Below, one piece after another: positions 6,258 through 41,468 of a stretch of 49,547 bases of DNA. The stretch comes from Methanocalculus taiwanensis (GTDB lineage Archaea > Halobacteriota > Methanomicrobia > Methanomicrobiales > Methanocorpusculaceae). Location: positions 1 to 49,547 of the forward strand of contig NZ_VOTZ01000019.1 in NCBI RefSeq assembly GCF_024372745.1. The letters are read 5' to 3'. The notes beneath the pieces are model-generated. The model was not told the origin of the DNA and ran no database searches. It saw only the letters and a program-made list of their open reading frames with translations. Each line of letters begins with the position of its first letter. The first letter of the stretch is position 1. Both the position numbers and the translations under genes were made by a program.

Positions 6258-6268
6258 ATGAAGACCCC

Positions 6269-8130: not shown

Positions 8131-8132
8131 CC

Positions 8133-9095
8133 TCAGGCACCCCCATACCGGATGTCGAGGATCGCATTTGTCAGGGTGAGATAATCTCCATTATCCTGCA
8201 CTATGACGGTATTACCGGTTGATCGGAGGTATTGGCGTATATCACGGTTATCGATTCCAATCTGGTTGATCTCATCTGAAACAAATGCATCATGCCAGAC
8301 CTTCCCATTATATCCCGGGAATAGTGAGGCGATTATCGATTCGATGAAGCCCGGCAGATCACTCCCTCTCTCCCTGTTGACGAAGATGGAATTCTTCTGT
8401 GGAATCTCTGTCCGGGTATAGCCACCTGATGGTGCAACCAGAAGCAGATCCGTAGATGTAACATCCCGTGTCCTGACATCGCCTTCAAATATGATAGCAG
8501 AGCTTGCCATTGCCGGGGTGATTCCATGGCTTGCATAGAGCATATCGCAGCCCTCCGAGATCCATAAAAGACCGGGAGGGTCTGACGGGGTGCTGTAGGC
8601 GACAAGGAGAGCGGCACCTGTCATCACAAAAGAACGGGTATCATCTGCGTTATTTGTGATCAGGAGAGAGATATCACCACTCCTCAGGAGAGTTTCAGGA
8701 GGGGCATAGGTATCCATTCCTGAGAAGAAGTCATTTGTAGCGACAAATCCCTTTGAATCAGTATACCTGTCAATGAGTGGGAGGGGTACTCCATCTGCTT
8801 CAACCTGGAGAAGAGGGTAGATCGCATCCTGGCCGATTTTGCTCCATGACCAGTAGAGATAGATCCGCTCATATAAGACTTCGGCATCCGGAGGAATCTC
8901 ATAGGGGAGTGAAACCCTGTACTGATCCCCGGAATTCATCGCCCCCCCATAATGGCTGTTTCCGGTGGAGAATGATATGGCTGCCGGACGATCGGTATGA
9001 AATACTGTAGTGAGCGTTTTATCTCCTGCATAGCTTGCCGCTGCCGGAGAGATGAGCAGGATGATTAGCATGAATATGTATTTAGGGGAAGACAT
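8133..9095 (-). CDS. Exported DUF3344-type protein (320 aa)
   Basis: The signal peptide is at about residues 1-22 (MLIILLISPAAASYAG). The rest reads as one DUF3344-like module with YERIYLYWSW, LLITNNADDTRSF and LLWISEGCDMLYA, matching the second DUF3344-like module of the 1259-residue protein in the same operon (ITNNGRDGDTF, EYWITEGCDAILA). No transmembrane anchor after the signal and no catalytic motif are visible. Its ATG overlaps the end of the preceding gene by 14 bp and its TGA lies 2 bp before the ABC ATPase start. The placement directly ahead of a MacB-type transporter suggests a substrate or partner of that transporter; this is inference. Confidence 0.87.
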   Translation of the reverse strand: MSSPKYIFMLIILLISPAAASYAGDKTLTTVFHTDRPAAISFSTGNSHYGGAMNSGDQYRVSLPYEIPPDAEVLYERIYLYWSWSKIGQDAIYPLLQVEADGVPLPLIDRYTDSKGFVATNDFFSGMDTYAPPETLLRSGDISLLITNNADDTRSFVMTGAALLVAYSTPSDPPGLLWISEGCDMLYASHGITPAMASSAIIFEGDVRTRDVTSTDLLLVAPSGGYTRTEIPQKNSIFVNRERGSDLPGFIESIIASLFPGYNGKVWHDAFVSDEINQIGIDNRDIRQYLRSTGNTVIVQDNGDYLTLTNAILDIRYGGA

Positions 9096-10866
9096 ACGCT
9101 CTCTCCATCACATTATCGTCAATATTTCTCTCCTTAAGCATTCTCGGTTCATCGGCAACTACCTTCACCATATGCCTGCCTGGTGTCGTGTAGATCGGGA
9201 TGATGATCTGCCTGCTGCTCTCTGCTGTAACCCCATCATTGATCCGCATTACCGCAGCCCGCTCACCATCAATATAGACGACAACCTCAAATGCCAATGC
9301 ATCGCTCCCACCATTATTCCTGATTGTAACGGGGAGATCATAGGCAACATATCCCCCATCTGCCGAAGCTGCAGGTACCATCAGCCCAACAGAGGAGAGA
9401 ATGATCATCCCTGTCAGAAGAGGTGCCATAATCTTCCCTGCATTCTGACGGGTAATCAGAAATGCCAGAAAAACACTGATAATGACAACGCATCCGTGAA
9501 TTGGACTTTGCTCTGAACGAATGGGGGCATCATCTCCGGCTCGGCGCGGCTCAAGGATCATCACAGCCAGATCAGGAGGCGATCCGACGGTGATCTCACG
9601 GTTCGCTTCATTATTGCTCACATCCCTATCGCCTCCAGCTTCAACAGTTACAGAAAGGGTAATCCTTCCAGAGGCAGGCTTCCAGGGAACAGAGACGGAA
9701 GCGACTCCATCATGGGATAGTAATACCATCTCACGTCCAAACTCAATGCCATCTGACCTGAAGATCACCGTTGCCGGATCATCAGGAATCCCCCCATAAT
9801 TCCTGATATCGGCTGTCACCGTCGCAGTCTCTCCTGCATATGCATTGGCGATCTCTATGCCGGCAACTGCCAGATCCGGAGCTATCGTTCCAGAACTCTT
9901 TTTAAGAGTCATAACGGCAAGCAATGGGTGCATATAATCCTCCCCCTCAACAAAGGATCCAGTTGTTTTGATCTCTCCGTCAAAATCGAGATCACGACCC
10001 CGCTCAAAGGTGATCTCATTTCTCTCCCTGACAAAAGCGGTCACATCGAACCGCTCAGCATCTATATAGCGGGATGGAATCCCCTCACCGCCGGTTGCTG
10101 AGAATGAGCGTTCATTTCCGATATCGCGGGAACCATCCGGGAGTTCAACACCGAGATCATAACCATTGATAAGAAGATAGTCGGGCTGGCCGGCATTTGT
10201 TGCGCTAAGTGTAATAAAGAGTTCGGCAGATTTCAACCCCTCGAGATCTGCCCCTTCAAATACTGTCGTCGATGAATCCTTCCGGGTGGGGTTTGTTCCG
10301 GCCCATCCCTCTCCATGGAGATTCTCGTTCCCTTCTGCGATCCAGTACTGTAACCTGCCGGAAGACGGATCTTCCACCCCGGCAACGACGATTACGCAAT
10401 ATACTCGTCCATCAAGCCGGTTCCCCGCTTCTCCACGGCTTGTGGTCACCGAAACAAGGTTCTGGCCTGAACGCATCAGATCAGTTGCATCATAGGCGAT
10501 CCAATAGGATCCATGGCTTGCAACATAGACATCGCGGTTCCGGTCCCTATCCCCTTCAAGCTGGTATATCACCTTCTGGAGATTGTTCACGGTTATCTCG
10601 GCACGTCCGGTATACTTCTCGGTTCCACCCCACACACCGGCATAGATCCGTGAAAAGACCGGCTTTGAGGGGAGGGTGAAGCGGAGATCAACAGGTGGTG
10701 TATCCAGGCCATATGTCCCAAAATAGAGAATATCACCGTTCATCTCACCCTGGATCACCGGCTCGACCGGGATACCTTCCCATGCATAGATGGCTGATGC
10801 TGTCGGACAGAAGAGCAATGCTATGACGAGGATAAGGAGGGTCCATGAGTGAGTATTACGTATCAT
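9082..10866 (-). CDS. DUF3344-CARDB surface protein with an internal membrane hairpin
   Basis: 594 residues. Signal peptide about 1-25 (ILVIALLFCPTASA). DUF3344-type module about 30-340 with FSRIYAGVWGG and YWIAEGNENL. A CARDB-like Ig domain about 345-440 (PDLAVAGIEIANAYAGETATV). Two closely spaced membrane segments about 457-472 (CVVIISVFLAFLI) and 480-498 (a helix ending MVPAASADGG). Then a second CARDB-like domain to the C-terminus (LPVTIRNNGGSDALAFEVVV). The second membrane segment with its AASA end looks like a complete signal peptide, so the gene may be a fusion of two exported proteins, or the protein loops through the membrane. It is the first gene of the five-gene operon. CARDB domains are adhesion-like Ig folds. 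Confidence 0.87.
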   Translation of the reverse strand: MIRNTHSWTLLILVIALLFCPTASAIYAWEGIPVEPVIQGEMNGDILYFGTYGLDTPPVDLRFTLPSKPVFSRIYAGVWGGTEKYTGRAEITVNNLQKVIYQLEGDRDRNRDVYVASHGSYWIAYDATDLMRSGQNLVSVTTSRGEAGNRLDGRVYCVIVVAGVEDPSSGRLQYWIAEGNENLHGEGWAGTNPTRKDSSTTVFEGADLEGLKSAELFITLSATNAGQPDYLLINGYDLGVELPDGSRDIGNERSFSATGGEGIPSRYIDAERFDVTAFVRERNEITFERGRDLDFDGEIKTTGSFVEGEDYMHPLLAVMTLKKSSGTIAPDLAVAGIEIANAYAGETATVTADIRNYGGIPDDPATVIFRSDGIEFGREMVLLSHDGVASVSVPWKPASGRITLSVTVEAGGDRDVSNNEANREITVGSPPDLAVMILEPRRAGDDAPIRSEQSPIHGCVVIISVFLAFLITRQNAGKIMAPLLTGMIILSSVGLMVPAASADGGYVAYDLPVTIRNNGGSDALAFEVVVYIDGERAAVMRINDGVTAESSRQIIIPIYTTPGRHMVKVVADEPRMLKERNIDDNVMERAYVFP

Positions 10867-11000
10867 GAAATAATGTTACTCGTCAATACTAAATAATGAT
10901 TCTTTCATAGGAAATAAACTCAATAAATACATAACAAATATCATATCACACAGATTCTATCGATGTTTCCATGGTAAAACTGATCATATAATTATCATCA

Positions 11001-14000
11001 CTATCGTTTTATCTTCTCCCGAACCTCATCCAGACTCATCATATGGATACTTCCACCCTGCATCTGACCATTCTCCCCATCCATCTGATCCTCAAGCCAC
11101 CCTTCTGTCTCAAGGTATGCCTCCCTGAGACCTGAAGAGAGCTCAGGATCGGGGGTCCAGAGACCTCTGGCCTCTGCTTCAAGCAGCCGCCTCCCAATCT
11201 CTTCAAGGGCAAATGGGTTATTATCCCGGAAGAATGCACGATTCTCTTCATCAAGAATAAAAGTCCGGGTGATATCATCAAAGATTCGATCATCAACCTC
11301 CCCGGTTGATGCCTCCCACCCATAGATAGTTCCAACTCTCTTTGCAATATCGCCGGCACCTTTGTACCCATGCCGTTTCATGCCTTCAATCCAGGCAGGG
11401 TTTAGGATCTTTGATCTGACAACCCTACGGATCTCTTCCGCGAGTGTCCGTACTTCAACCCGTGACGGGGTGCGGGTATCACCATAGTAAGATTCTATCC
11501 GCTTTCCTGACAGGTGCCGAGCCGCTGCCGTCATCCCTCCATGAGTGCCGAAATAACAGCAGCACCCGGTGAGATCGTACTCATCTGTTGCGGTCTTGTT
11601 GAAGGTTGCCTGGACTGTTGCCAGTAGGGCAGAGAAACCCAAAAGATCCTGGCTCCCGGAATCCCCGTTCCCATACGAGTATCCGTTCCACTCGATGAAG
11701 ATCTGAGAGAGATCCTTCTCGTCTTTCCATGCAGATGCAAATACTGCAAGATTAATCCCATTGCCATAGGTTCCGGGACGGCTTGAATAGAGCCGGCGTG
11801 ACGTCCCGCTCTCCAGCGTATGTGCACGAATCGGGTTCTCTTCATCTGACTCATCAAGTTCCGAGACAGCGGTGAATGCACGATCGAGCAGTTCAATTGC
11901 TGAGAAGAAACAGTCGCGGAGGATAGCGGATACACGGATCGTCACATCGACTCTGGGCCTTCCTAGTTGATGAACCGGAATAATCTCAAAAGAAACAACC
12001 TTTCCTGCCTTCCAGATCGGCCTGACCCCGATAAGATGCAGGATCTGGGCAAACTGTTCGCCATCAGCCCACATCAGATCCGTAGACTGCCAGTACATTG
12101 CAACCGAACGCGGATAGGCGCCATGCTCCTCTATAAATGTTGCCAGGAGGGCATCGGTCAGCCGCTGTCCGACCATCCATGCAGCCTTTGTTGGTACTGT
12201 TGCCGGATCGAGTGAGTAAAAGTTCCTCCCGGTCGGGAGGATATCTGGTCTCCCCCGTGTTATCAGACCTGAGGGGCCCGGGGCGATGAATCCTCCATCC
12301 AGGCCACTCAGGAGGGCTCCCATCTCATCTGAATCATCAATCCCTTCATTTAAGCTCCGGATAAGCTCGGCCATAAGGATGATCTGAACCCGTGTGCCGG
12401 GAAGAGGGTGTCGCCCGCACGCTGCCTGAACTGCATCGTCCTCGGTAGCACCTTCCAGAATGGCCTGTACAAAAACATATTCGCCCAACTCACGTTTCTC
12501 AGGGGACTCATTTTGGTAATCTGATCCGAAGAGGGCAGATGAGAGGGCATCATCAAACCGTGCAGCTGCATGAATGAAACGGGCACGATCCTCACCAGAC
12601 GGGCGTTCCCCGAAGATATGCATGCCATCAGGGATACGCGTAGATGAGATTCTGCCAAGGATTTGGTGAACCCGCTCAATGAATGCATGGAACCCGAGGT
12701 GGCCAACCGGCATGTCAGTCTCTTCTGCAAGACCAGCGGCGGTGACCGCATCTTTGATGAGATGCTGAAGGTCATGTGCCCGTACAGGATCACTTGTTTT
12801 TGCACGGGTATACTCATCAAGGAGGGTTTCAAGTTCCTTCAGCTCACCATAGAGGCCGGATGCCTGCATCACCGTCTGCATATGGTCAATCAGAGTCGCA
12901 GCAGCCCGCCGTTTTGCGATTGTTCCCTCAGGAGGGTTATCGGCATTATAAATATACAGGTGTGGCACTGTGCCGATCATATTGTCCGGGAAACAGCTAT
13001 CCGAGGGTGCTGCCGATTTTCCGGGGAGGAATTCCAGATTCCCGTGAGTCCCGACATGGATGATCATATCTGCCCCAAAAACCCGTTCAAGCCAGCGGTA
13101 TGTGGCAAGGTACTGGTGAGTTGGTGGCACCTCCGGATCATGGAGGAGTTTACATACAGATCCGTCGCACCGTGATCCTGCACACCCTCGTTTTGGCTGA
13201 ACACAGACGATGGCATTTCCATAGGATACACCCGTAACGATGATCTGGTTGTTATACACCATCGCCGGAGGAATCCCATCGATCTCCTCTCCAGGCGGCG
13301 AACCCCATGCCTCTGTCATTCTGGTTCTGACAGAGCTATCCAGTTCGTCGAACCACCCGAGATATTCATCCAGATCAATGAGAGCAAGGGCACCACCTGA
13401 GCGGACGATTGAAGCAGCCGTCGTCCATCTGAATTCACTGATCGCCCGACGTTCCAGTATTGTATCGATTAATTTCTTTCCATCTGACGGAGGATCAACA
13501 GCGTAGCCTTCCTTCTCCATCCGTTTGAGTATCCGGGCGGTGCTCTCCAGTGTATCGAGATGAGCACCTGCCCCGACTGTTGCCTCAACCGAGGAGCAGG
13601 GCTTGTTATGAAGGATGATAGCAACTCTCCGTTCTGAGGGGGCTTTTGTCTGGAGTGTTAACCATGAATGTGCCCGGGCAGCGATCCGGTTTATACGCTC
13701 ATCAATTGGATCATGGGTGCCGAATGCTACATTCACTTCTTCGGATCCGAATGGAAGCATCTCGATCATGCCCTGCATCTCAGGGAGGGCGACACTCCAT
13801 GCGAGCTCCATCGATGGCAGGCCGAGTGATGAATCAAGCCACTCCTGCTGAGTCTGATGGTAGAGGAGGAGCGGATGGATGACCGGAACATTCAGATCTT
13901 TGAAGCAACCTTCGGCAGCGCCCTGAATCCCGGATCGGAAGACCGGCTGGAGATTGATAATAACGCCCACATCAGATCCAAACCAATCCGCTGCCACCTC

Positions 14001-28180: not shown

Positions 28181-28513
28181 ATGCCGGTTCATGATATTGA
28201 GGCTGTCCTGAAGGTGGAGGAAGAGGCGATCTCACGGATTCTGGCTGCTGAAGAGGAGGCAGAAAAAGCAGTCAGTTCCGCAAGGATTGAAGCGGCAGCA
28301 TATATCGAAGATGAATTGAAGAAGGCAGGGACAGAGGCAGCAGAGACAGTTAACCGGGCTATACAGGATGCAGAGGAAAGAGCCCGGGAGATTGCAGTTG
28401 CAACAGAAGAGCGAGTTGAGCAGATCACGACTGCCGCCGCTTCACGAAAGGAAGAGGCAGTTGCAGCGATCATAGCCGCCATCACCGGAGGGGAGGATGT
28501 TCTATCCGGCTGA
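28181..28513 (+). CDS. atpH: A-type ATP synthase subunit H (peripheral stalk)
   Basis: 110 residues, almost wholly charged coiled coil (Ala/Glu/Arg-rich heptads from about 8 to 100), as in archaeal AhaH/AtpH, which pairs with subunit E in the peripheral stalk. It is the first gene of the operon. A weak A/T-rich box near 28148-28156 could be the promoter. The following gene starts inside it with a 17-bp overlap. Confidence 0.85.
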   Translation: MPVHDIEAVLKVEEEAISRILAAEEEAEKAVSSARIEAAAYIEDELKKAGTEAAETVNRAIQDAEERAREIAVATEERVEQITTAAASRKEEAVAAIIAAITGGEDVLSG

Positions 28514-30476
28514 GATGCAGAAGGTGACGGTAGGGATTCATCGCCGGCATGCAGCATCGTTCCTCTCTGCTCTCCATGAAGAGGGGATTATTGAACTGAC
28601 TCCGATCACCGGTGACGAGCATCTCCTCCACCTCATCACACTGGTGCAAAGGGATGAGATCCGGCAGTCACTCGCATCTGCCCAGGCCAGGATAGAGCGT
28701 GCGGTGGAGGCCCTTCTTGATCACAGGGAAGAGCTGGGGAGGATCACTGGTTTCTTCCTCCCGGATCGGAAATCCCCTGTTCCTGCAGAGCGATCTGATC
28801 CCACCTTACTGCTGAAGGTGGTGGATAGGTATAACCCGGTGATCTCGGATATCCTATCCTGCCGGGTTCGTCGTTCAGCTATCCATGAGCGTATCGCCCG
28901 CCTTGATGAAGAGGAGGAGCATCTTCTCCTCTTCCGGTGCGTTGCAGAGTCCCTCCCTCCGCGGGAGCCATCCCGTTTTATCACTGTCCGGGCAGGGCTT
29001 ATTCCAACCGGTGAATGCGAGGATTTAAACGCACTTTTTGAAGAAGAGGGAATATCAGAGGCAATTGCTCACTCAGCATGCAGGCTAAAGGAAGAAGGGA
29101 TGATTGCAGTCGTCCTTTCCCATTTACGTGCTGCCGAAAGAGTGGATGCACTCCTCCGTTCAAGGGGTTTTGCGGATTTTACCTTCGGTGATCATGGAAG
29201 TTCTGTTACTGAGGCGCTAGAGCATATCCGTAAAGAGAAGAGCTCTCTTTATCAGGAAGACGAAACGATACAGAATCTCCTGCGGGAAAAAGGCACAGAA
29301 TACCTTCAGCTGCTTGCCGGGCTTGGAGAAGACCTGGGGATCGCCCGTGATGCAGTTGATGCTGCCGCCCTCACCGGTTCAACCCGTGATCTCAGGCTCT
29401 ATTCAGGATGGATAAGGAGCCATGATCTCCCTCTCCTTGAGAAGATCGGAGACCTTCATGCTGGCGGCACCATGATCTACCGGGCAGTTCCGGGGAAGGA
29501 CGGGGATGCCGCTGTTCCTGTTGCCTACAACCATCCACGCTGGCTCTCGCCATTCAGGTCTCTCACCACGACATTTGCCCCGCCCCGGTATCGTGAGGTG
29601 GATCCGACATTTTTTATTGCTCCAGTACTCGTCATCACCTTTGGGGTGATGCTTGGGGATGCCGGGTACGGACTGCTGCTTGCACTGGTTGCAGCAGCCC
29701 TCCTTGCAGGCCCTGCACGGTACCCGGGATCCACCCGTGACTTCTCGTTCATCCTGTTTGCCTGCGGTATCTCCGGTATTCTCTTTGGCATCTTACAGGG
29801 GGGATTCTTCGGGGATCTCCTCCCGAGATTCTTCGGCATTGCCCCCCCTTTCGCTATAATCGATCCCCTGATGGATCCGATTACCATCCTCACCGCCGCC
29901 CTCCTCTTCGGGATCGCACACCTGAACCTGGGTCTTGGCATCGCGGCATACAGCTATATAAGGGCAGGAGATTTCAGGAAGATGCTCAGGGAACAGGGCG
30001 TCTGGTTCCTGATTCAGCCCTGTGCGGCAATCCTCCTCTTCGCCTTCTTCGGGTGGGCTGAGATCCCCCTCCCTCTTCTCTTTGCAGCGGGAGCTGGAGC
30101 TGCCGCCGCCGCCGGTCTGATCCTCACCTTCGAAGGGCCGCTTGGGTTCTTCAGCATCACGGGATTCCTTGGTGACTGGCTGAGCTATACAAGGATTCTT
30201 GCGCTTGCACTCGCAACCGCCGGAATTGCGATGACAGTGAATATCCTCTCTGAGATGATCGGATCAGTTCATCCATATCTCCTCATAATTGCTATTCTCT
30301 TTGCAGTCGCCGGTCATCTGGCAAACTTCCTGCTCCAGGCGCTTGGCGGATTTATCCATGCCCTCCGTCTCCAGTATGTTGAGTTTTTTGGGCATTTTTA
30401 CGAGGGCGGAGGGCGTCTCTTCCAGCCATTTTTCACGAACCGGGAGAAGACGATCCTTTTGGAGGATGAACCATGA
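28497..30476 (+). CDS. atpI: A-type ATP synthase subunit I (a-subunit)
   Basis: 659 residues. The N-terminal half (about 1-365) is the cytoplasmic stalk-binding domain (MFYPAEMQKVTVGIHRRHAASFLSAL), with coiled-coil segments near 70-130 and 250-290. The C-terminal half has about seven to eight membrane helices starting at TFFIAPVLVITFGVMLGDAGYGLLLAL. The ion-path arginine is expected in LSYTRILALALA, R566. It forms the static ion channel against the K ring. It overlaps atpH by 17 bp and atpK by 4 bp. Confidence 0.95.
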   Translation: MFYPAEMQKVTVGIHRRHAASFLSALHEEGIIELTPITGDEHLLHLITLVQRDEIRQSLASAQARIERAVEALLDHREELGRITGFFLPDRKSPVPAERSDPTLLLKVVDRYNPVISDILSCRVRRSAIHERIARLDEEEEHLLLFRCVAESLPPREPSRFITVRAGLIPTGECEDLNALFEEEGISEAIAHSACRLKEEGMIAVVLSHLRAAERVDALLRSRGFADFTFGDHGSSVTEALEHIRKEKSSLYQEDETIQNLLREKGTEYLQLLAGLGEDLGIARDAVDAAALTGSTRDLRLYSGWIRSHDLPLLEKIGDLHAGGTMIYRAVPGKDGDAAVPVAYNHPRWLSPFRSLTTTFAPPRYREVDPTFFIAPVLVITFGVMLGDAGYGLLLALVAAALLAGPARYPGSTRDFSFILFACGISGILFGILQGGFFGDLLPRFFGIAPPFAIIDPLMDPITILTAALLFGIAHLNLGLGIAAYSYIRAGDFRKMLREQGVWFLIQPCAAILLFAFFGWAEIPLPLLFAAGAGAAAAAGLILTFEGPLGFFSITGFLGDWLSYTRILALALATAGIAMTVNILSEMIGSVHPYLLIIAILFAVAGHLANFLLQALGGFIHALRLQYVEFFGHFYEGGGRLFQPFFTNREKTILLEDEP

Positions 30477-31927
30477 TACCTGAACTAACACCTGGATTTA
30501 TCCTGGCAGTCACCGGTGCCGGGCTCGCCGTTGGATTGTCTGCGATTGGATCCGGCATGGGTGTCGGCATTGCCGGCGCTACCGGTGCCGGAGTAATCGC
30601 AATCAAGCCCGAAAAGTTCGGGCAGGCACTTGTCTTCCAGGCGGTTCCCCAGACACAGGGGATGTATGGTCTTCTGGTGGCGGTTTTGATCCTCCTCTCG
30701 ACCGGGGTGATCGGCGGTATCGGCGATCCAGTCTCCACCCCGATGGGGCTTGCTGCTCTTGGTGCCGGATTAGCGGTCGGTATTGCGGGTCTCTCAGCAA
30801 TCGGTCAGGGTATTGCCGCATCTGCGGGGATTGCCACCAGCTCGGAGGACGATACGGCGATGGGAAGATCCCTCGTCTTCTCGGTGATCCCGGAGACGCA
30901 GGCTATCTATGGTTTGCTTGTTGCGATTCTGATCATGGCATTCTCCGGAATCCTGGCAGGTGACGCGGTAGCGACGATGGCGACCGGCCTTGCCGCGATC
31001 GGCTGCGGCCTTGCGGTCGGCCTTGCCGGCCTCTCTGCGATTGGCCAGGGTATTGCTGCTGCTGCCGGCTCCGCCTCTTCAGCCGAGCATGAGGGTGCAT
31101 TTGGACGTGCCCTCGTTTTTTCGGTGATCCCGGAGACGCAGGCTATCTATGGCCTCTTAGTTGCGATCCTGATCATGGCATTCACCGGGATGATCGCAGG
31201 CGGCCCGATCTCGGATATTTCGATTGGCATCGCTGCAATCGGGTGCGGATTTGCAATCGGCCTTGCTGCACTCTCTGCGATCGGTCAGGGTATTGCTGCT
31301 GCCGCTGGTGCAGCGGCAACCGCAGAGAAACCGGAAGCATTCGGAAGATCCCTTGTCTTCTCGGTGATCCCGGAGACGCAGGCTATCTATGGATTACTGG
31401 TTGCGATCCTGATCATGGCGTTCACCGGGATGATCACCCGGGATATCGTTCCCACCCTTGCCGCCGGCTTTGCCTCGATTGCCTGTGGAATTGCAGTTGG
31501 TTTTGCTGCACTCTCTGCAATCGGTCAGGGTATTGCCGCATCTGCCGGGATTGCGACCACCTCCGAGCGGGAAGATATGTTTGGGAAAGGGCTTGTCTTC
31601 TCGGTGATTCCTGAGACGCAGGCTATCTATGGCCTGCTGGTTGCAATCCTGATCATGGCCTTCACCGGGATTATCACCCGCGACGTGACGGCAACCGCGG
31701 CTGCGGGTCTTGCCTGTATCGGATCAGGATTTGCCGTCGGCCTTGCAGGACTCTCAGCAATAGGACAGGGGATGACTGCTGCTGCCGGTATTGGTGCGGT
31801 TGCACGGAGGCCAGAGGCGATGGGGCAGAGCCTCGTCTTTGCGGTGATGGCAGAGACCTTTGCAATCTTCGGCCTTCTTGTTGCGATCCTGATCATGTTT
31901 GGAATCGGGCTCTTTGGGGGTCTCTGA
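30473..31927 (+). CDS. atpK: A-type ATP synthase rotor subunit K, six fused c-hairpins
   Basis: 484 residues made of six consecutive two-helix hairpins of about 80 residues each. The ion-binding position of helix 2 is Q60 (PQTQGMYG), then E141, E221, E301 and E381 (each PETQAIYG), and E461 (AETFAIFG). Helix 1 of hairpins 2-6 has SAIGQG, whereas hairpin 1 has SAIGSG. So hairpins 2-6 carry the Gln plus Glu-Thr set known from Na+-binding c and K subunits, while hairpin 1 has lost both Gln and Glu. Typical archaeal K has one or two hairpins; M. jannaschii is known for three and Methanopyrus for 13. Two copies would give 12 hairpins with 10 sites; this stoichiometry is inferred. The gene overlaps atpI by 4 bp and abuts atpE. 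Confidence 0.95.
   Translation: MIPELTPGFILAVTGAGLAVGLSAIGSGMGVGIAGATGAGVIAIKPEKFGQALVFQAVPQTQGMYGLLVAVLILLSTGVIGGIGDPVSTPMGLAALGAGLAVGIAGLSAIGQGIAASAGIATSSEDDTAMGRSLVFSVIPETQAIYGLLVAILIMAFSGILAGDAVATMATGLAAIGCGLAVGLAGLSAIGQGIAAAAGSASSAEHEGAFGRALVFSVIPETQAIYGLLVAILIMAFTGMIAGGPISDISIGIAAIGCGFAIGLAALSAIGQGIAAAAGAAATAEKPEAFGRSLVFSVIPETQAIYGLLVAILIMAFTGMITRDIVPTLAAGFASIACGIAVGFAALSAIGQGIAASAGIATTSEREDMFGKGLVFSVIPETQAIYGLLVAILIMAFTGIITRDVTATAAAGLACIGSGFAVGLAGLSAIGQGMTAAAGIGAVARRPEAMGQSLVFAVMAETFAIFGLLVAILIMFGIGLFGGL
30640..31870 (+). repeat. 240-bp tandem repeats inside atpK
   Basis: The four internal PETQAIYG blocks recur with a period of exactly 240 bp; GGCTATCTAT starts at 30901, 31141, 31381 and 31621. 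Around each copy about 30 bp are almost identical even at third codon positions, unlike the flanking hairpin 1 and hairpin 6. This indicates recent duplication or ongoing gene conversion among hairpins 2-5. Confidence 0.92.
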
Positions 31928-32539
31928 ATGGGGCTTGAGAAGATCATCTCCTTGATTAAAGAAGAAACCGAAGAGGAGATCGCGAGGATCTGGCAGAAGG
32001 CAGAAGAAGAAAGTAATGCGATCCACGATGCTGCATGGGAGAGGGCTCGTCGTGAACACGAACGCACCCTTCTTGAAGGTGATCGGAAAGCTCTGCGTGA
32101 AGAACAGAAAATCCTCCTCCAGGCTGAGTATGATGAGATGAAGGCCATCCGGGATGCGAGATGGCATGGGATACGGGAGGTGTTTGTTTCTGCTGAAGAA
32201 GAGCTGGCTGCACTCTCGTCATCTCCCGGATACCCCGAAATTCTTCGAACCCTAATCGATGAAGGGAGGGAGATCCTCGGGGGGGGAGAGATCGTTCTTC
32301 TCTGCCGGTTTGCTGATATGAAAGCAGTTGAAAGCGCAGCAGAAGGACTTGAAGGGGTGACAATCCGCTCCTTACCACCCCATGATCCGCAGATCCGCTC
32401 TGGCGGGGTGATCGTCATCTCCAAAGATACTCCCATCCGGTGTGACCAGACATTTGCGACACGGTTGGATCAGATGCGGGATCACCTGGCATGGAAGGTA
32501 TCCGGGATTCTCTATGGAGGTGGGGAGAATGGATATTGA
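31928..32539 (+). CDS. atpE: A-type ATP synthase subunit E (peripheral stalk)
   Basis: 203 residues with the family layout: an N-terminal coiled coil (MGLEKIISLIKEETEEEIARIW to about 100), then a globular C-terminal domain containing SLPPHDPQIRSGGVIVISKD and a closing ATRLDQMRDHLAWKVSGILYG. It joins subunit H in the peripheral stalk and binds the A3B3 head. It directly follows atpK and overlaps atpC by 11 bp. Confidence 0.93.
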   Translation: MGLEKIISLIKEETEEEIARIWQKAEEESNAIHDAAWERARREHERTLLEGDRKALREEQKILLQAEYDEMKAIRDARWHGIREVFVSAEEELAALSSSPGYPEILRTLIDEGREILGGGEIVLLCRFADMKAVESAAEGLEGVTIRSLPPHDPQIRSGGVIVISKDTPIRCDQTFATRLDQMRDHLAWKVSGILYGGGENGY

Positions 32540-33716
32540 TCTGATCTTCTCAGAACTCTTCACCGGAGAAGGATCAGGGCTGATCGCGATTGCGTTTGCC
32601 ATTGCGTTTTTTATCGCAGTCTTCATCGCGGTATCTGCCGGATGGTTCAGGCTGATTTTAAGCATCGCCTCGTTTGCCTATCCATCTGCACGGGTCAGGG
32701 CGATGGGAAATCCGCTCGTGACGGCAGAGGGTGCAGATACCCTCTCGGATGCAGGTGATCTCCTCGAACTCTTTGAACGGGCCGGAAGGTCAGGCCATTC
32801 AATTGAGTACCGGGAGGGGATGACCGCAGACGATACCGAACGGCTGATCCGTCACTATCACTATACATTACTAGGCAACCTCGCTGTATCTGTCCCGGAT
32901 GCGATCCATTCCCTGATCCTCGGATATATCCAGGTCTACGAGGGATTGGAGGTTGCAGCCGTTCTGAGGGGGATTGCAGGCGGTCTGCCGGGAGATCTGA
33001 TCGAGAAGAGGGCGGTTCCAATCGGCTCATTTTCTGAATCAGCGATCAGGAAGGCCGCCCATTCAGGCTCTGTTGAAGAGGCAGTCCAGCGACTTGACCG
33101 GGCAGGTATTCTTCCCCGAATCAGGGATCTCTGGAAGGTGGTTGGTGAACAGGAAGAATATGCGGCATTCGAATCAGCGCTTCTCTCTGAGAGCTACCTC
33201 TCCCTGATGATGACCGCACGGGGCATCGAAGAATCCCAGTACGAACCGGCAGTCCTGATGGCCGGACGGATGATAGACTGCAAAAACCTTGGGATTCTGA
33301 TCCGGGGACGACTGTCTGGTGCGGATGCAGCAGCAATCGAGCCATTCCTCATTCAAAAGGGAGGCTTTGAGATCACAGATGATATGCTCCGGGCATTAAC
33401 CCGTTCTGCCGATCTTGTGGAACTCTCTTCCCTGATCAGTGAGACGATGTATAGCCCCTATATCGAGCCTTTCATTGAGCAGGTGAGGAAGAGCCGTGAT
33501 CCCGGTGCAATCGAGATGGCCCTCTCTCAATGCCTGCTTGATGTCGGCAGGATGGTGAGCAGCCAGTATCATCTTGGGAGCGGTCCGATTCTTCGGTACC
33601 TGATGGCGCTTGGCATCGAATGCGAAAACCTGCGGGCGGCTGCTGCCGGAATTCTGTATCATGTACCTGCCGAGACGATCAGGGGGCAGATGGTGGTGGA
33701 GGTGAGCGGCAGGTGA
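32529..33716 (+). CDS. atpC: A-type ATP synthase subunit C with N-terminal membrane helix
   Basis: 395 residues from the ATG at 32529 (MDIDLIF). The subunit C body begins at FAYPSARVRAMGNPLVTAEGADTL, the usual start of V/A-type subunit C (d), and continues as an all-helical domain to the end. The family attaches the central stalk to the K ring as a socket. Unusual is the extension of about 45 residues before it, with a strong membrane helix (about 16-38, LIAIAFAIAFFIAVFIAV). I recall Methanomicrobiales relatives with similar leaders, so this may be a lineage trait. Its stop overlaps the GTG start of atpF. Confidence 0.92.
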   Translation: MDIDLIFSELFTGEGSGLIAIAFAIAFFIAVFIAVSAGWFRLILSIASFAYPSARVRAMGNPLVTAEGADTLSDAGDLLELFERAGRSGHSIEYREGMTADDTERLIRHYHYTLLGNLAVSVPDAIHSLILGYIQVYEGLEVAAVLRGIAGGLPGDLIEKRAVPIGSFSESAIRKAAHSGSVEEAVQRLDRAGILPRIRDLWKVVGEQEEYAAFESALLSESYLSLMMTARGIEESQYEPAVLMAGRMIDCKNLGILIRGRLSGADAAAIEPFLIQKGGFEITDDMLRALTRSADLVELSSLISETMYSPYIEPFIEQVRKSRDPGAIEMALSQCLLDVGRMVSSQYHLGSGPILRYLMALGIECENLRAAAAGILYHVPAETIRGQMVVEVSGR

Positions 33717-34030
33717 AGATCGTTGCACTTGGTGATCGGACGGTCACTCTCCTATGCCGGCTCGGCGGTGTGGCAGAGACGATCCGGTGCGAGGATTTTT
33801 CATCTGCTGAAGCTGCACTGAAAGAGCTTCTTATGGAGGAATCAGTCGCTATCGTCCTTATACAGGATCGGTATGTGCGACCGCTCATCCCGATGCTTGA
33901 AGAGCATGGGCGGTCGCACCGGGTCTATCCGGTTGTTGTAGAAATACCGGGGCCAAAGGGTCCGGTGAAAGGGGATGATACGATAACCGAGGCGATCAGA
34001 CGGGTTGCCGGGCGGGGGATGCCAGGGTGA
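33713..34030 (+). CDS. atpF: A-type ATP synthase subunit F (central stalk)
   Basis: 105 residues starting at the GTG at 33713, supported by a GGAGGTGA ribosome binding site a few bases upstream inside atpC and by the 4-bp overlap with the atpC stop. The N-terminus KIVALGDRTVTLLCRLGGV and the middle IVLIQDRYVRPLIP match the small Rossmann-like F subunit, which binds subunit D in the rotating stalk. Confidence 0.92.
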   Translation: MKIVALGDRTVTLLCRLGGVAETIRCEDFSSAEAALKELLMEESVAIVLIQDRYVRPLIPMLEEHGRSHRVYPVVVEIPGPKGPVKGDDTITEAIRRVAGRGMPG

Positions 34031-34034
34031 TTGG

Positions 34035-35789
34035 ATGACAGAGAGCAGTATAATTCGGATTACAGGACCGGTTGTCGAGGCTGACCGGATGCGTGGAGCA
34101 CAGATGTATGAGGTCGTCTTTGTCGGCGAGGATGAGCTTATCGGCGAGATCATCGGGCTGTATAACGATACCGCAACCATCCAGGTCTACGAGGATACCA
34201 CCGGTATTACCCCCGGTGAGCCGGTAAAACGATCAACGATGCCGCTCTCGGTGGAGCTTGGCCCCGGCCTTCTTGAGATGATCTATGATGGCATCCAGCG
34301 GCCGCTGACAGAGCTTGGGGATCTCTCCGGGGATTTCATCGTCCGGGGTGTCTCGGCTCCGGCACTATCGCGTGAGAAGAAGTTCCTTTTCACCCCTTCC
34401 CTCTCTGAGGGAGACGAAATTTCCGGTGGTGCGGTGATCGGGTCAGTTCCTGAGACGAAGCAGATTCTGCACACAATTCTCCTCGCACCTGATCTCTCGG
34501 GGACGGTGGAGCGGATCGCAGGTGAAGGTGAGTATACCGTGGATGAAACGATCCTCTGGCTGAAAGATGATACCGGCAAGGTACAGAAGATCACAATGCT
34601 CCAGCGCTGGCCGGTCCGGGTGCCCCGCCCGATACAGTCGAAGCTCCCGGCGATCCGCCCCCTGATCACCGGCCAGCGGGTGATCGACTCTTTCTTCCCG
34701 ATGGTGCAGGGGGGAACCGCCGCTGTACCTGGTCCCTTTGGTGCTGGCAAGACGGTTGTCCAGCACCAGCTCGCCAAATGGTGCGATGCAGATATCATTG
34801 TGTATGTCGGGTGCGGTGAGCGGGGGAATGAGATGGCAGATGTGCTCAGGCAGTTCCCGTCTCTTGTCGATCCAAAGACAAAGGAGCCCCTGATGAAGAG
34901 GACTGTCCTGATCGGCAATACTTCGAATATGCCGGTTGCGGCCCGTGAGGCATCGGTCTATACCGGTATTACGATTGCAGAATACTATCGTGACATGGGG
35001 TATTCTGTTGCCCTGATGGCAGACTCAACTTCCCGGTGGGCAGAGGCGATGCGGGAGATCTCAGGCCGCCTGGAGGAGATGCCGGGTGAACATGGCTATC
35101 CTGCCTACCTCGGTTCCCGGCTTGCCGATTTCTATGAACGGGCAGGGCGGGTGAAGACGCTCTCCGGCGAAGAAGGCTCAATCTCGGTGATTGGGGCAGT
35201 CTCGCCGCCGGGGGGCGATTTCTCCGAGCCGGTGACCCAGAACACGCTCCGGATTGTCCGGGTCTTCTGGGCTCTGGATGCTGATCTTGCACACCAGCGC
35301 CATTTCCCGGCAGTGAACTGGCTCCTCAGCTATTCGCTCTATTCGGATCTTGTTGCCCCATGGTGGGAGAAGCACGGGGGATCTGAATGGGGAACGATGC
35401 GATCTGATCTGCTTGCCCTCCTCCAGAAAGAGAACGAACTTGAGGAGATTGTTCAGCTGGTGGGCCCCGATCTCCTCCCCGAAGAAGACAAGTTCACGCT
35501 GAATGTCGCTGCCATCCTGAGGGAGTCCTTTCTGGTGCAGTCTGCATTTGATCCGGTCGATACCTTCTGCCCACCAGAGAAGCAGTATCGGATGATGACG
35601 CTGATCCATCGGTATTACCGGCTGGGGCGTCATGCAGTTGGTGAGGGGATGACAGCTGCTGAGATCCAGCAGCTTCCGGTGACTGCCCGGCTCTCCCGGC
35701 TGGGCCCGATACCGCATGAGGAGTTCGACTCGTTGTATCCAAAGATTTGTGAAGAGATGAACTCTGCATTTCCAGGGGGTGATGCCTGA
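34035..35789 (+). CDS. atpA: A-type ATP synthase catalytic subunit A
   Basis: 584 residues from the ATG at 34035, with GGTGAT 5 nt before it. N-terminal beta-barrel ([14 protein letters not shown]), the A-specific bulge domain (about 110-190), the catalytic P-loop GPFGAGKT (233-240), [35 protein letters not shown], the Walker B region [27 protein letters not shown] and a helical C-terminal domain. It makes or hydrolyses ATP in the A3B3 head. The stop shares one base with the atpB ATG (TGATG). Confidence 0.97.
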
Positions 35790-37174
35790 TGCCGCCGCTC
35801 CGCGAGTTCCAGTCTGTTGTCAGGGTGGCAGGGCCAATCCTTGCAGTATCCGGGATCGATGATGCCGGGTATAACGAGGTAGTGAAGGTTCTCCTCCCCG
35901 ATGGCACAGTCCGGACAGGGCAGGTGCTTGAGTCAAGGAAAGGGATGGCGATCGTGATGGTCTTCGGAGGAACACGCGATCTCGACTGCGATATCACCGC
36001 GGTACGGTTCACCGGCAGGCCGATGACGATGCCTGTTTCAAAAGAGATGCTCGGCCGGATCTTCTCAGGATCGGCTGATCCGATCGATGGCGGAGGGAGT
36101 GTCGTACCTGAGAAGGAGATGGAGATCTCCGGCTATGCGATCAACCCGACAAAACGGGAGTTCCCGCAGGATTCGATTGAGACCGGGATATCCGCAATCG
36201 ACGGGATGAATACGCTTGTCCAGGGCCAGAAACTCCCGGTCTTCTCGGGCTCAGGCCTCCCCCACAGTTTCCTTGCCGCCCAGATCACACGGCAGGCCCG
36301 TGTACGGGGGACTGACGAATCGTTTGCAGTCGTCTTTGCGGCGATGGGAATCACCCACGAGGAGGCACGATTCTTTGTCGAGGAGTTCTCCGAGACCGGG
36401 GCCCGGGCACATGCGGTGATCTTTCTGAATCGTGCCGATGACCCTGCGATTGAGCGGATCGTTACCCCACGGCTCGCCCTGACTGCGGCTGAATACCTGG
36501 CATTTGACCTGGGGATGCATGTGCTTGTTGTCATGCAGGATATCACCGCATACTGCGAGGCGCTCCGCGAGGTCTCGGCTGCCCGTGAGGAGATACCGGC
36601 ACGGAGAGGGTACCCGGGATATATGTACACGGATCTCGCATCGCTCTATGAACGGGCCGGTCGGGTGAAAGGGCGGCCAGGCTCGATCACTCAGCTTTCG
36701 ATCCTCTCAATGCCTGATGATGATATCACCCATCCGGTTCCTGATCTGACCGGGTACATCACCGAAGGGCAGATTGTCCTCTCCCGCGAACTGCACAGGA
36801 AGGGGATTTATCCCCCGATCGATGTGCTTCCCTGCCTGTCACGGCTGATGCAGGGCGGGATCGGGGAGGGGAGGACCCGGCCCGATCATGCGAATGTATC
36901 AAGCCAGCTCTATGCCGCCTATGCCCGGGGACGGCGGCTTGCCGGGCTTGTGGCAGTGATCGGCGATGAAGGGCTGACTGATGTCGACCGCCTGTACCTG
37001 ACCTTCCTCGATCGGTTCGAGCATGAGTTTGTCGGCCAGAAGCGGGATGAGGGGCGATCATTTGATGAAACCCTCGACCGTGCATGGGATCTCCTCTCGA
37101 TCTTCCCACAAGATGAGCTGAAGCGGATTGATCCGAAGTATATTAAAGAGCATTACCGGGGTGGCACCGGGTGA
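35789..37174 (+). CDS. atpB: A-type ATP synthase regulatory subunit B
   Basis: 461 residues. The beta-barrel starts [18 protein letters not shown]; the nucleotide-binding region has the degenerate P-loop FSGSGLPHS expected of the non-catalytic subunit, then [26 protein letters not shown] and the C-terminal [25 protein letters not shown]. It alternates with subunit A in the head. It overlaps atpD by 4 bp (GTGA). Confidence 0.97.
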
Positions 37175-37818
37175 GCCGGAGGCTCCCCCCCGGTACACGC
37201 CCGACACGGATCGAACTGCTGAAGGTGCGCAAGCGGCTTGTGATCGCGGAGAAGGGGCACGAGCTCCTCAGGGAGAAGCTTGACGCGATGGTGATGGAGT
37301 TCTTCTCCCTCTCAAAACGGCGGGATGAGCTGAGGGGAGTGATGGAGAAGGCGTTTGCTGCGGCATACCCGGCACTCTTTGCAGCGGAGATGGCGGCGTC
37401 TCACCGGGAAGTGGAGAGCTGTGCCGCTGTCGAGCGGATCATACCCGATCTTTTGGTAATTGAGAAGGGTATCATGGGGGTAGGGGTTCCGCGATTTGAT
37501 ATCCCCGATCCGCTCAGGGAGGGGCGTGTCCCCGGATACGGCTTCCCGGCAGCAACCGGGAGGCTGGATTGCGCTTCCGATCTTGCAGAAGAGGCAATTG
37601 CCGCCGCCATCCGGCTCGCCGAGGTGGAAGGCGCCCTCCTCCGCCTTTCGTCCCGGATAACTTCGGTCAGGCGGCGGGCAAATGCCCTTGATTCGATCAT
37701 GATCCCGCAGCAAAAAAGGATTATTGCCTATATCTCGGATTATCTTGAGGAGATGGAGCGGGAGGATCTCTTCAGGAGGAAACGGACAAAGGCACGGGGG
37801 GAGGAGCGGCGATGGTGA
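37171..37818 (+). CDS. atpD: A-type ATP synthase subunit D (central stalk)
   Basis: 215 residues from a GTG start overlapping the atpB stop. The family opening [31 protein letters not shown] is present, as are long antiparallel coiled-coil helices at both ends (the second near [31 protein letters not shown]). The middle of the protein is a short globular insert. It forms the rotating shaft together with F. Confidence 0.95.
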
Positions 37819-37973: not shown

Positions 37974-40900
37974 TCAAAGCTCTGAAATTTTCCCGACATA
38001 GTAGTAAGCGATTATTGCGGCATCGGCACCATTCACTCTGCCATCTTTGTTGAAATCTGCTGCTAAATCTGGTTTGATTTGTTCTAATGCCATCCATGCG
38101 ACTTTTGATACATCTCCTATATCAACATGCCCGTTTCCATTGAAATCACCTTGGATATTAACGATAACTCTGTCTATCTGGGTGTCAGTGTTAATTCCGC
38201 CATCATTCTTCGCGGTGAGCCTGATGGAGTAGTTTCCTGGTTCGAAGAAGGTGTATTGGGGGTTTTTCAACTGTGAGAAGGTTCTCCAGCCGATACCTGT
38301 ATTGTATTCCCATCTGAATGCGTCGGGATTTTTGGTTGACATATCGGTAAAATTAACGGTAAGGGGAGCATTTCCCTTGTGCGGTGCGGTTATGAAGGTG
38401 GCATTGGGTGGGGATGGGAGAAAATCTCCTTTGGAATAATCATGTGTTCTATAAGGAGATCTATTATAATCTATTTGAATATTATCCTGGCTCATTATAA
38501 CTACATCCCGCAACTCATAAGGCCCGTCAATACCCTGTAATCCGATTACCCGTCCACTGAATAAAAGGGGTGCTATATTTTCTCCCATGTAGAATTCTCC
38601 TTCATAAAATGCAGTGGTGATGTGCCCGGAATATCCATACAGTGCTGCTGAGACTTTGTATCTTCCAGCGTGTGTCACTGACAGTCCGGTATCAATTCTC
38701 AAGAAATCCAAGGTTCCGTCCCCATCTGAATCAATAGCGAAATCGGCATATGTATCTGTTAGGGAGATCTGGGCTCCTTCGAATTGGGAGGGGGTGTAGC
38801 TCTCAGTTAAATGGGCATATGCCCTATTGTCAAGGATAAATGCTTCCCTTCCCCCGGACTCTGACAGGATTACATTGAGTATATATGGTCCATTTCTTTC
38901 AGATTGATGGATCTCTGTCCCGTTAAATTGTAAAGTAACTTCGAAAATGCCGTTGGTGGCAAGAGGGATCCGTTGCGATGAGGATGCTATGAAGGTACCC
39001 TCTTCATCAGTGAGGTTTCCATATAGCGTATATGTTCCCGGATAGTCAACGCCCAATGTCACATCAACGATAAGAAGATTGTATAATCCATTCCCGTTTG
39101 TATCGAGACCATTATCTACAAAATGAAGGAATCCAGAGTCATCGGTCTCTTCTGAGAGGAGTATTGTCTGATCGAGAGAGGGTATGGTTACACGTTCACT
39201 ACTATATGTTGATGGGACAGTTGAATCTGCCTGCTCTTTGGCCATCCTCCCTCCATCTGACCAGTCTTTGGTATAATCATACCTGGGTACAAAGCCTTCG
39301 ACACGGCCGAGAGCCCGGTTCTCCTCCCGGTAGCAGAGATACTCTTCGTCTCCATACGTGATGTAATTTTGATCAAAATGAGTACGGAAATTGTATGTGT
39401 CTGTATGGTTGATGTCGGTTTGGGATCCCCGGGGTTCCCATTCTGTCGTCAGTGTTCCATTTTCAAAAGCATCAGGTAGATTGTCGTTTGATGTCTGATA
39501 GTATGATCGGCCATCTGCTCTATAATTATATCGTAATGATGAGTTATTGTAATCAGAGTCATGCAATCCTGAAAATATTCCCGATTCACGTGTAAGCCGT
39601 ATTGTTTCATGATGGAGTTCATGGAAGACTGTTGCTGTTGCCCCTGTTATTCCAACTGTCCCACCGATGGTCTCCCCATCAGGTTCGAGAGCGGTGTTGA
39701 GGGTGATTGTATTCCATAGTGTCGGAGCTGCCGGACCAAGGGCGATGATTCCTGTTGATGAATTATAATAACCTGCGCTGCCAGTGCCTGGATCATAGGT
39801 TGTCAGATTGATCTTCTCGATAGAACCCTCCCTTTTCCAGTAATGGTACCAGTTTGGCTCGTTAGTTAGAATGGATGGATCCTTTCTCCAGTTTAGCGGG
39901 GATGCATAGGGATTTGTCTTCCAGTCAGATGGACCTCCCATTGGGAAGAACACTTTGAAATCAATATCTTTCTGATCGAGAAGGTATGGGTCGTTTTCGC
40001 CATTTTGTTTGCCAAAGAGCTTCACTTGTAACTGTTTATTGCCATATTCTCCGTATTGCCATGTTTTTCCCTGAGAATAATTCAGGTTTGTTTTTCCTCC
40101 GAGTCTTTCTTCAGGACGTGATGATGCTTCTGTGCCGTTCAAAAAATCCCACTCCAGACCGCAGATCTCATATCCGGGCACTTCAGCGATAACGGCAGAG
40201 AATATTGTCTTTGTTTCCGGTCCCGTAACTGGTATTTTAGGGGAGTAGTTTAGATGCAGTATGACTGGTATTGTGGTGAACATCTGGATTCGGGAATTGT
40301 CGCTGTCAACCACATAGACTTTGCTCCCCTCCCCATACACAGCGACACTTCTTGGTCTGAGAAACTCTCCATCAGCTGTACCGTACCTTCCCCATGCTGT
40401 GATGAATCTGCCATTACTGCTGAATTTTTGTATACGGTCGTTTTGGAGATCTGCCACATAAACGCCACCCGTATCATCAACTGCAATCCCCCAAGGCCAG
40501 TATAATTGCCCTTCTTCCGAACCCTGTGTCCCCCAGGATGTAATATAGGTGCCATTGTCTGTGAATTTCTGGATGCGATGGTTTTGGTTGTCTGCTACAT
40601 ATATATTGCCGGATATATCGACTGTGATTCCGGTAGGTGCTGAAAACTGGCCCTCACCCGAACCATGAGATCCCCAGCTGGTGATGTAGGTGCCGCCACC
40701 TGTAAACTTCTGTACGCGATGGTTATTTTCATCTGTTACATAGACAACTCCTGAACTACTATCAACGGCGACATCATGTGGATAGATGAACTGCCCCGGT
40801 TTTTCTCCATATCCTCCCCAATTTGTTATAAATATCCCTGTGCGTGAGAATTTCCATACCCGGTGATTGGATGAATCGGTCAGGTAGACATTCCCGAAAG

Positions 40901-41216
40901 CGTCACATGCAATCCCCTTTGGAGTAAATAATTTTCCGGTTTCAGGATCCCTTGTTTTCCATGTGGTGATAAATCGGCCTGTGCTATCGAAGATCTGGAC
41001 GCGGTTATTTCTGCTCTCTGTTACAAGGACGTTTCCAGCAGTGTCAAGTGTAGCATACACCGGTGTTCTAAACTCCCCTTCCCCTTCCCCAAAAGTACCC
41101 CACTTTGTCACATAACTATAGTTTTCAATAGCCTGCACTCCTGAAGCAAGAAAGGAGAATATGATCAGGAGAAAGAGGATCATCCTTATTGCCTGGTTAT
41201 TTCGTCTTCCTATCAT
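37974..41216 (-). CDS. Exported NHL-propeller protein with HEXXH motif, PKD and dockerin domains
   Basis: 1080 residues from the ATG at 41216, preferred over a GTG at 41228 because GGTGGTG lies about 7 nt upstream. Signal peptide about 10-30. Six NHL repeats (about 35-320; motif NHRVQKF / GIAVD / VYVAD). A middle region (about 330-760) contains HELHH (H532, E533, H536), a zinc-peptidase-like HEXXH. Beta-sandwich modules follow with SDGDGTLDFLRID, then a PKD domain (about 940-1020: APLTVNFTDMSTKNPDAFRWEY) and a C-terminal type I dockerin with two DxNxDG loops (DFNGNGHVDIGD and DFNKDGRVNGAD) ending AYYYVGKISEL. The dockerin suggests binding to cohesins on the cell surface. Proteolysis is possible but unproven. 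Confidence 0.9.
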   Translation of the reverse strand: MIGRRNNQAIRMILFLLIIFSFLASGVQAIENYSYVTKWGTFGEGEGEFRTPVYATLDTAGNVLVTESRNNRVQIFDSTGRFITTWKTRDPETGKLFTPKGIACDAFGNVYLTDSSNHRVWKFSRTGIFITNWGGYGEKPGQFIYPHDVAVDSSSGVVYVTDENNHRVQKFTGGGTYITSWGSHGSGEGQFSAPTGITVDISGNIYVADNQNHRIQKFTDNGTYITSWGTQGSEEGQLYWPWGIAVDDTGGVYVADLQNDRIQKFSSNGRFITAWGRYGTADGEFLRPRSVAVYGEGSKVYVVDSDNSRIQMFTTIPVILHLNYSPKIPVTGPETKTIFSAVIAEVPGYEICGLEWDFLNGTEASSRPEERLGGKTNLNYSQGKTWQYGEYGNKQLQVKLFGKQNGENDPYLLDQKDIDFKVFFPMGGPSDWKTNPYASPLNWRKDPSILTNEPNWYHYWKREGSIEKINLTTYDPGTGSAGYYNSSTGIIALGPAAPTLWNTITLNTALEPDGETIGGTVGITGATATVFHELHHETIRLTRESGIFSGLHDSDYNNSSLRYNYRADGRSYYQTSNDNLPDAFENGTLTTEWEPRGSQTDINHTDTYNFRTHFDQNYITYGDEEYLCYREENRALGRVEGFVPRYDYTKDWSDGGRMAKEQADSTVPSTYSSERVTIPSLDQTILLSEETDDSGFLHFVDNGLDTNGNGLYNLLIVDVTLGVDYPGTYTLYGNLTDEEGTFIASSSQRIPLATNGIFEVTLQFNGTEIHQSERNGPYILNVILSESGGREAFILDNRAYAHLTESYTPSQFEGAQISLTDTYADFAIDSDGDGTLDFLRIDTGLSVTHAGRYKVSAALYGYSGHITTAFYEGEFYMGENIAPLLFSGRVIGLQGIDGPYELRDVVIMSQDNIQIDYNRSPYRTHDYSKGDFLPSPPNATFITAPHKGNAPLTVNFTDMSTKNPDAFRWEYNTGIGWRTFSQLKNPQYTFFEPGNYSIRLTAKNDGGINTDTQIDRVIVNIQGDFNGNGHVDIGDVSKVAWMALEQIKPDLAADFNKDGRVNGADAAIIAYYYVGKISEL

Positions 41217-41468
41217 CGTTTCCACCACCGTTCATGGCAACACCGCAGGATATACGACTTTATTGCACCGGTAAAATCCTGTTTGGCGATATCCGCTTCC
41301 CTGTCATACTGGTATTTCAGAAAAAAAACGAAATGGGGTGATTCAGTAACCAGATTGTGAGATACTGACATGATGAGTGGGGAGCATTCTTCCCATCATT
41401 ATCCGTCTAATATCTCTTTTTATATAAAAAACTATTGTTGGTTTCCGACCCTCTCCACTCACGTGAGT

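Follow-up and report, generated by a model that had tools for sequence, protein, structure and literature searches.

A six-hairpin rotor subunit with five predicted ion sites in an accessory A-type ATPase of Methanocalculus

The operon and its rotor subunit

The window, by which we mean the whole stretch of 49,547 nucleotides of Methanocalculus taiwanensis DNA analysed here, carries a complete set of A-type ATPase genes in one operon, in the order H-I-K-E-C-F-A-B-D at positions 28181-37818 of the forward strand. ORF and profile searches showed every gene of the operon to be intact within the window, and the genes were assigned as follows.

28181-28513, forward strand: subunit H (peripheral stalk, V-ATPase G/H-like), which opens the operon; PF03179 E=4.6e-4, under the curated cut-off, the assignment being made from position and length, with overlap with I
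28497-30476, forward strand: subunit I (stator a subunit), in which the conserved Arg (residue 624) lies in HALRLQYVEF; PF01496 E=1.7e-18 and motif
30473-31927, forward strand: subunit K, 484 aa, with six hairpins predicted to form five composite ion sites; PF00137 in six stretches (E=1.8e-92), ligand positions and AlphaFold2 model
31928-32539, forward strand: subunit E (peripheral stalk); PF01991 E=4.8e-23
32442-33716, forward strand: subunit C (AC39), real start probably 3' of the ORF start; PF01992 E=7.9e-34 from residue 82
33620-34030, forward strand: subunit F, real start probably 3' of the ORF start; PF01990 E=5.1e-12 from residue 34
34005-35789, forward strand: catalytic subunit A, with Walker A GPFGAGKT; PF00006 E=1.1e-75 and motif
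35789-37174, forward strand: subunit B; PF00006 E=1.9e-80
37171-37818, forward strand: subunit D (central shaft); PF01813 E=6.9e-47

This gene order is constant and complete across the relatives that we compared. Downstream and convergent with the operon, at 37974-41228 on the reverse strand, lies a gene for a large secreted protein that by eye appears NHL-repeat-like with a dockerin-like C-terminus.

Methanocalculus is a salt-tolerant methane-making archaeon, and many of its relatives carry a six-hairpin K. The closest genomes are also from Methanocalculus, namely a metagenome-assembled genome labelled Methanocorpusculaceae (L009, 99%) and M. chunghsingensis (L012, 91%). The same 2.3-Mb genome contains two further A-type operons, each with a single-hairpin rotor gene, at L102 (C18) and L103 (C13). 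The operon that includes 30473-31927 is therefore one of three A-ATPases, and it is an accessory one. Three A-type clusters have also been described in Methanospirillum hungatei JF1 (PMC4704411).

The K (c) subunit belongs clearly to the ATP-synt_C family, scoring 304 bits over its six separate stretches against a curated cut-off of 24 bits. Its hairpins fall into three types.

30482-30736, forward strand: hairpin 1 (aa 4-88), without the helix-1 Gln, with Gln60 in place of Glu and with Thr61, Gln62 and Tyr65 kept (candidate half-site donor)
30737-31696, forward strand: hairpins 2-5 (aa 89-408), each with the full ligand set Q..ETQxxY
31697-31924, forward strand: hairpin 6 (aa 409-484), with Gln432, Glu461 and Thr462 kept and with Phe463 and Phe466 in place of the second Gln and the Tyr

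The helix-1 motif is AIGSG (Ser27) in hairpin 1 and AIGQG in hairpins 2-6 (Gln112, 192, 272, 352 and 432), and the helix-2 motif is PQTQ (Gln60) in hairpin 1, PETQ in hairpins 2-5 and AETF in hairpin 6. Depending on a one-residue indel, the Gln position of hairpin 1 is occupied by Ser27 or by a nearby Val, and there is no Gln either way. The internal hairpins are 68-74% identical to one another; hairpin 6 shares 51-57% identity with them, and hairpin 1 shares 39-48% with the others. The translation thus bears out the residues named in the original prediction (Ser and Q60 in hairpin 1; Gln, Glu and Thr in hairpins 2-6, with five carboxylates), and its count of six hairpins and five predicted sites per chain agrees with the six PF00137 stretches and the ligand positions. 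Absent from it were the retention of Thr61, Gln62 and Tyr65 in hairpin 1 and the loss of the second Gln and the Tyr in hairpin 6.

Proposed ion sites shared between successive hairpins

The best match to K in the PDB was NtpK of Enterococcus hirae (2BL2), both in sequence (E=2.4e-20) and in fold (rmsd 1.2 Å over 150 columns, TM 0.89 on the target). In the alignment, NtpK PGTQGLYG corresponds to PQTQGMYG of hairpin 1, and NtpK IAQG and VETYAI correspond to IGQG and AETFAI of hairpin 6. An AlphaFold2 single-chain model of K (pLDDT 89.2, pTM 0.88) supports the predicted hairpin fold and a packing of neighbouring hairpins like that in NtpK. The single Na+ site of NtpK is built from Leu61, Thr64 and Gln65 of its first hairpin and Gln110 and Glu139 of its second, with Tyr68 supporting the Glu (PMC2359735). 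That ligands come from two different hairpins in multi-hairpin subunits has already been stated for E. hirae (PMC2359735); what is added here is the extension of this two-hairpin plan to longer chains.

When K was read in this way, Thr and Gln of each hairpin were found together with Gln and Glu of the following one at all five internal junctions, as judged by residues with the geometry inferred by homology to 2BL2, and the site at the joint was absent on the residue level (Ser27/Gln60, Phe463/Phe466). We therefore propose, with a probability of about 0.78, that K is the rotor of an accessory A-type ATPase of the NtpK kind, coupled most likely to Na+, in which sites would be shared across successive hairpins. 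Each hairpin would donate Thr and Gln from helix 2, together with the supporting Tyr, and the next would donate Gln from helix 1 and the essential Glu from helix 2, giving five putative intrachain sites: 61/62+112/141, 142/143+192/221, 222/223+272/301, 302/303+352/381 and 382/383+432/461. Hairpin 1 would then contribute only a donor half, to site 1, and hairpin 6 only an acceptor half, to site 5, while hairpins 2-5 would each act as both acceptor and donor, as if the NtpK plan had been lengthened by four internal hairpins. If the ring is a homo-oligomer of K, as we assume, a sixth site would fall at the chain-to-chain joint, where it appears to have been dismantled on both sides, by Ser27/Gln60 on one and Phe463/Phe466 on the other. 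Six hairpins would give five sites because each site spans neighbours and only the joint site is removed.

Na+ is the likely coupling ion of this rotor and is well supported by sequence. As the original prediction had proposed, the ligand set is of the Na+ type, and the E. hirae side-chain ligands, the second Gln included, are predicted at all five internal sites. The other two rotors of the genome have the motifs M..ETLAIF and E..ETIVIF, each without at least one ligand of the E. hirae type. Given that these single-hairpin rotors do not have the full ligand set, the three rotors look specialised. It is also conceivable that the rotor is coupled to H+ or takes both ions despite its Na+-type ligands, since the ion choice in K is a prediction and some Na+ ligands persist in proton enzymes (PMC2359735). 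However, the complete set at every internal site of K, against its incompleteness in the two single-hairpin rotors, makes this alternative rather unlikely.

Conservation, distribution and evolution of hairpin number

To survey the relatives of K, loci were gathered from named genomes and then from the order Methanomicrobiales and the phylum. A census of 232 Methanomicrobiales genomes, in which hairpin number was judged from open-frame length and query range, showed that 57 of them have relatives; 35 copies are full-length with six hairpins, about 13 have three and one has four, and no five- or seven-hairpin K was found in these genomes by the same measures. Several apparent exceptions were rejected as contig-end truncations, namely 'two-hairpin' L023, L024, L054 and L145, 'three-hairpin' L021, L022 and L059, and 'five-hairpin' L011 and L018. 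The K of L019 was set aside as a broken reading frame. At this locus (3960-13408), which comes from Methanogenium cariaci JCM 10550, the six-hairpin operon has most of its genes broken into several frames, by either sequencing errors or decay.

The ligands follow a positional code, in which the first hairpin has QTQ..Y without the helix-1 Gln, internal hairpins have Q..ETQ..Y, and the last has Q..ET(F or P)..F. The code is obeyed by 59 intact frames out of 70 distinct multi-hairpin ones (six hairpins in 30, four in 3, three in 5 and two in 21), and in all 59 a protein of n hairpins has n-1 predicted sites. These sequences share ancestry, so that they are not 59 independent trials. Ten further frames are contig-end truncations or broken, and match the code as far as they reach. 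The remaining one, L140 (= L133), is a divergent relative that breaks it.

Locus L140 (7666-8619, reverse strand, in G127) encodes a three-hairpin K with Gln in place of the carboxylate throughout (QTQAIF, QTQAIF and QTQAVY). Directly after it comes a gene for a single-hairpin K in which the set is complete (Q..ETQAIY), and Mrp-like antiporter genes lie upstream. The motifs of this pair suggest a mixed rotor with few live sites. Rotor-like proteins of 152-162 aa with an LTQTIY motif were also seen at L104 (2208-2663, forward strand) and L107 (11489-11974, reverse strand), where, next to the ordinary operon, their genes adjoin a divergent subunit I; these proteins may belong to a further type of ATPase in family f6.

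When 26 six-hairpin proteins were aligned, the ligands were invariant down to 65% identity, among them Gln60, Thr61, Gln62 and Tyr65 in hairpin 1 as well as Phe463 and Phe466 in hairpin 6. Among the same sequences, silent codon changes occur at Thr61 and Tyr65, and Ser27 drifts to Ala. Given that the hairpin-1 ligands are invariant despite silent changes in their codons, selection appears to act on hairpin 1 as a half-site, which agrees with the earlier suggestion that this hairpin is under selection.

That suggestion had been made for a plainly dead hairpin 1 followed by five self-contained sites, two copies of which would form a ring of 12 hairpins and 10 sites. The counts of six and five are correct, and the complete hairpin numbers in relatives (2, 3, 4 and 6, never 5 or 7) all divide 12. 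The helix-1 Gln and the Glu of hairpin 1 are indeed gone; however, hairpin 1 keeps invariant Thr61, Gln62 and Tyr65, as expected for a half-site donor to hairpin 2, and hairpin 6 is without the partner ligands, just as a shared site predicts. One site is missing per chain, but it would lie between chains and is lost in hairpin 6 as well (Phe463 and Phe466). Moreover, the solved sites are common to two hairpins (PMC2359735), and divisibility fits a ring of 24 equally well, while that of NtpK has 20. We thus consider this reading improbable, slightly more so than coupling to protons or to both ions.

A non-functional gene or operon, or a repeat number produced by misassembly, is highly improbable. 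In its favour, repeats are difficult to assemble, L019 has several fragmented operon genes and one internal stop occurs in G470. However, the six-hairpin order recurs in the 35 full-length copies of the census, several of them in one-contig assemblies, and so is no assembly accident; the ligands are conserved across silent codon changes, and all operon genes of the window are intact.

In the tree of catalytic subunit A, the three-, four- and six-hairpin operons of Methanomicrobiales cluster together in a supported group (36 rows, 100/99). Separate from it are the single-hairpin operons and the two-hairpin operons, the latter coming from sulfate-reducer-type bacteria and from other archaea. Three rows of the supported group that are labelled K2 (L023, L024 and L145) are among the truncations named above. 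The group also includes L139, which has four hairpins and comes from another family of the phylum. Three-hairpin L099-L101 are nested among the six-hairpin operons, L079 and L090 (three) and L139 (four) lie near the base, and L138 (four) falls outside. Hairpin number has changed more than once.

Among the six-hairpin proteins, hairpins 1, 2 and 6 stay in register between species, and the middle ones are less clear past the nearer genera. We also considered an origin of the internal hairpins by crossover between the front of a last-type hairpin and the back of a first-type hairpin; this was seen in a first count and disappeared when the ligand columns were left out. Without these columns, the helix-2 tail resembled that of the last hairpin more closely, in 134 of 134 cases. 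A one-residue indel that is common to internal and last hairpins and missing in first and single ones points instead to a descent of the internal hairpins from a last-type hairpin.

Ring size and comparison with known systems

The number of sites per ring depends on the number of chains. With two chains, 12 hairpins would carry 10 sites (3.3 ions per ATP); with three, 18 would carry 15 (5.0), and with four, 24 would carry 20 (6.7). The ring of NtpK consists of 10 chains (K10), with 20 hairpins and 10 sites (PMC2359735). Given that the closest solved relative has a ring of 20 hairpins, K could likewise form a ring of 18 hairpins and 15 sites, or one of 24 hairpins and 20 sites. A ring of 20 cannot hold if made only of six-hairpin K, because 20 is not divisible by six. 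A two-hairpin fit to 2BL2 alone does not separate 30 from 18 degrees per hairpin. The observed hairpin numbers of 2, 3, 4 and 6 all divide both 12 and 24, which is suggestive, with few independent changes behind it. The lower ion-to-ATP ratio proposed originally holds only in so far as one sixth of the positions would have no site, compared with a ring of the same size in which all are live.

We also speculate, as an unlikely scheme, that a ring fixed at 12 hairpins is cut into chains of 2, 3, 4 or 6 hairpins and so carries 6, 8, 9 or 10 ions per turn. If this were true, ions per turn would equal 12 minus the number of chains, and gain or loss of repeats in one gene would shift the Na+-to-ATP ratio at an unchanged ring diameter. 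The number of sites in a rotor sets the ion-to-ATP ratio and, in turn, the smallest energy gradient on which a cell can live. Related methanogens provide a natural series of 2, 3, 4 and 6 hairpins per chain, with one site fewer than hairpins and the loss confined to the joint, so that K offers a testable case of site number being changed through repeat number. The six-hairpin K with its five predicted sites is real, conserved and informative, and the earlier reading of it needed correction on the lost site and caution on ring size.

The original prediction drew a parallel to the three-hairpin subunit of Methanocaldococcus, in which the first carboxylate is lost. The operon order of E. hirae, which we take to be ntpFIKECGABD, matches that of the window. 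Like K, NtpK of this V-type Na+-ATPase has its Na+ ligands divided between hairpins and has lost the joint site. However, each NtpK chain has two hairpins and one site, whereas K has six hairpins and five predicted sites, and Gly63 of NtpK stands where the K family has Gln60. K is therefore of the NtpK kind, not NtpK itself. In the open-licence literature we found three- and 13-hairpin archaeal subunits described, and none with six. The proteolipid of Methanocaldococcus jannaschii is likewise a multi-hairpin archaeal K, but its hairpin is triplicated, and loss of ligands is common in multi-hairpin subunits (PMC2359735). The K of Methanopyrus kandleri also combines many hairpins per chain with Na+-type ligands; however, it has 13 hairpins with the full set in every one, and no dismantled joint site has been described for it (PMC2359735). 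Finally, the K of Methanospirillum hungatei JF1 and its genus (L100 and L058) shares the operon clade and the positional code with that of the window, but has three hairpins and two predicted sites per chain instead of six and five.
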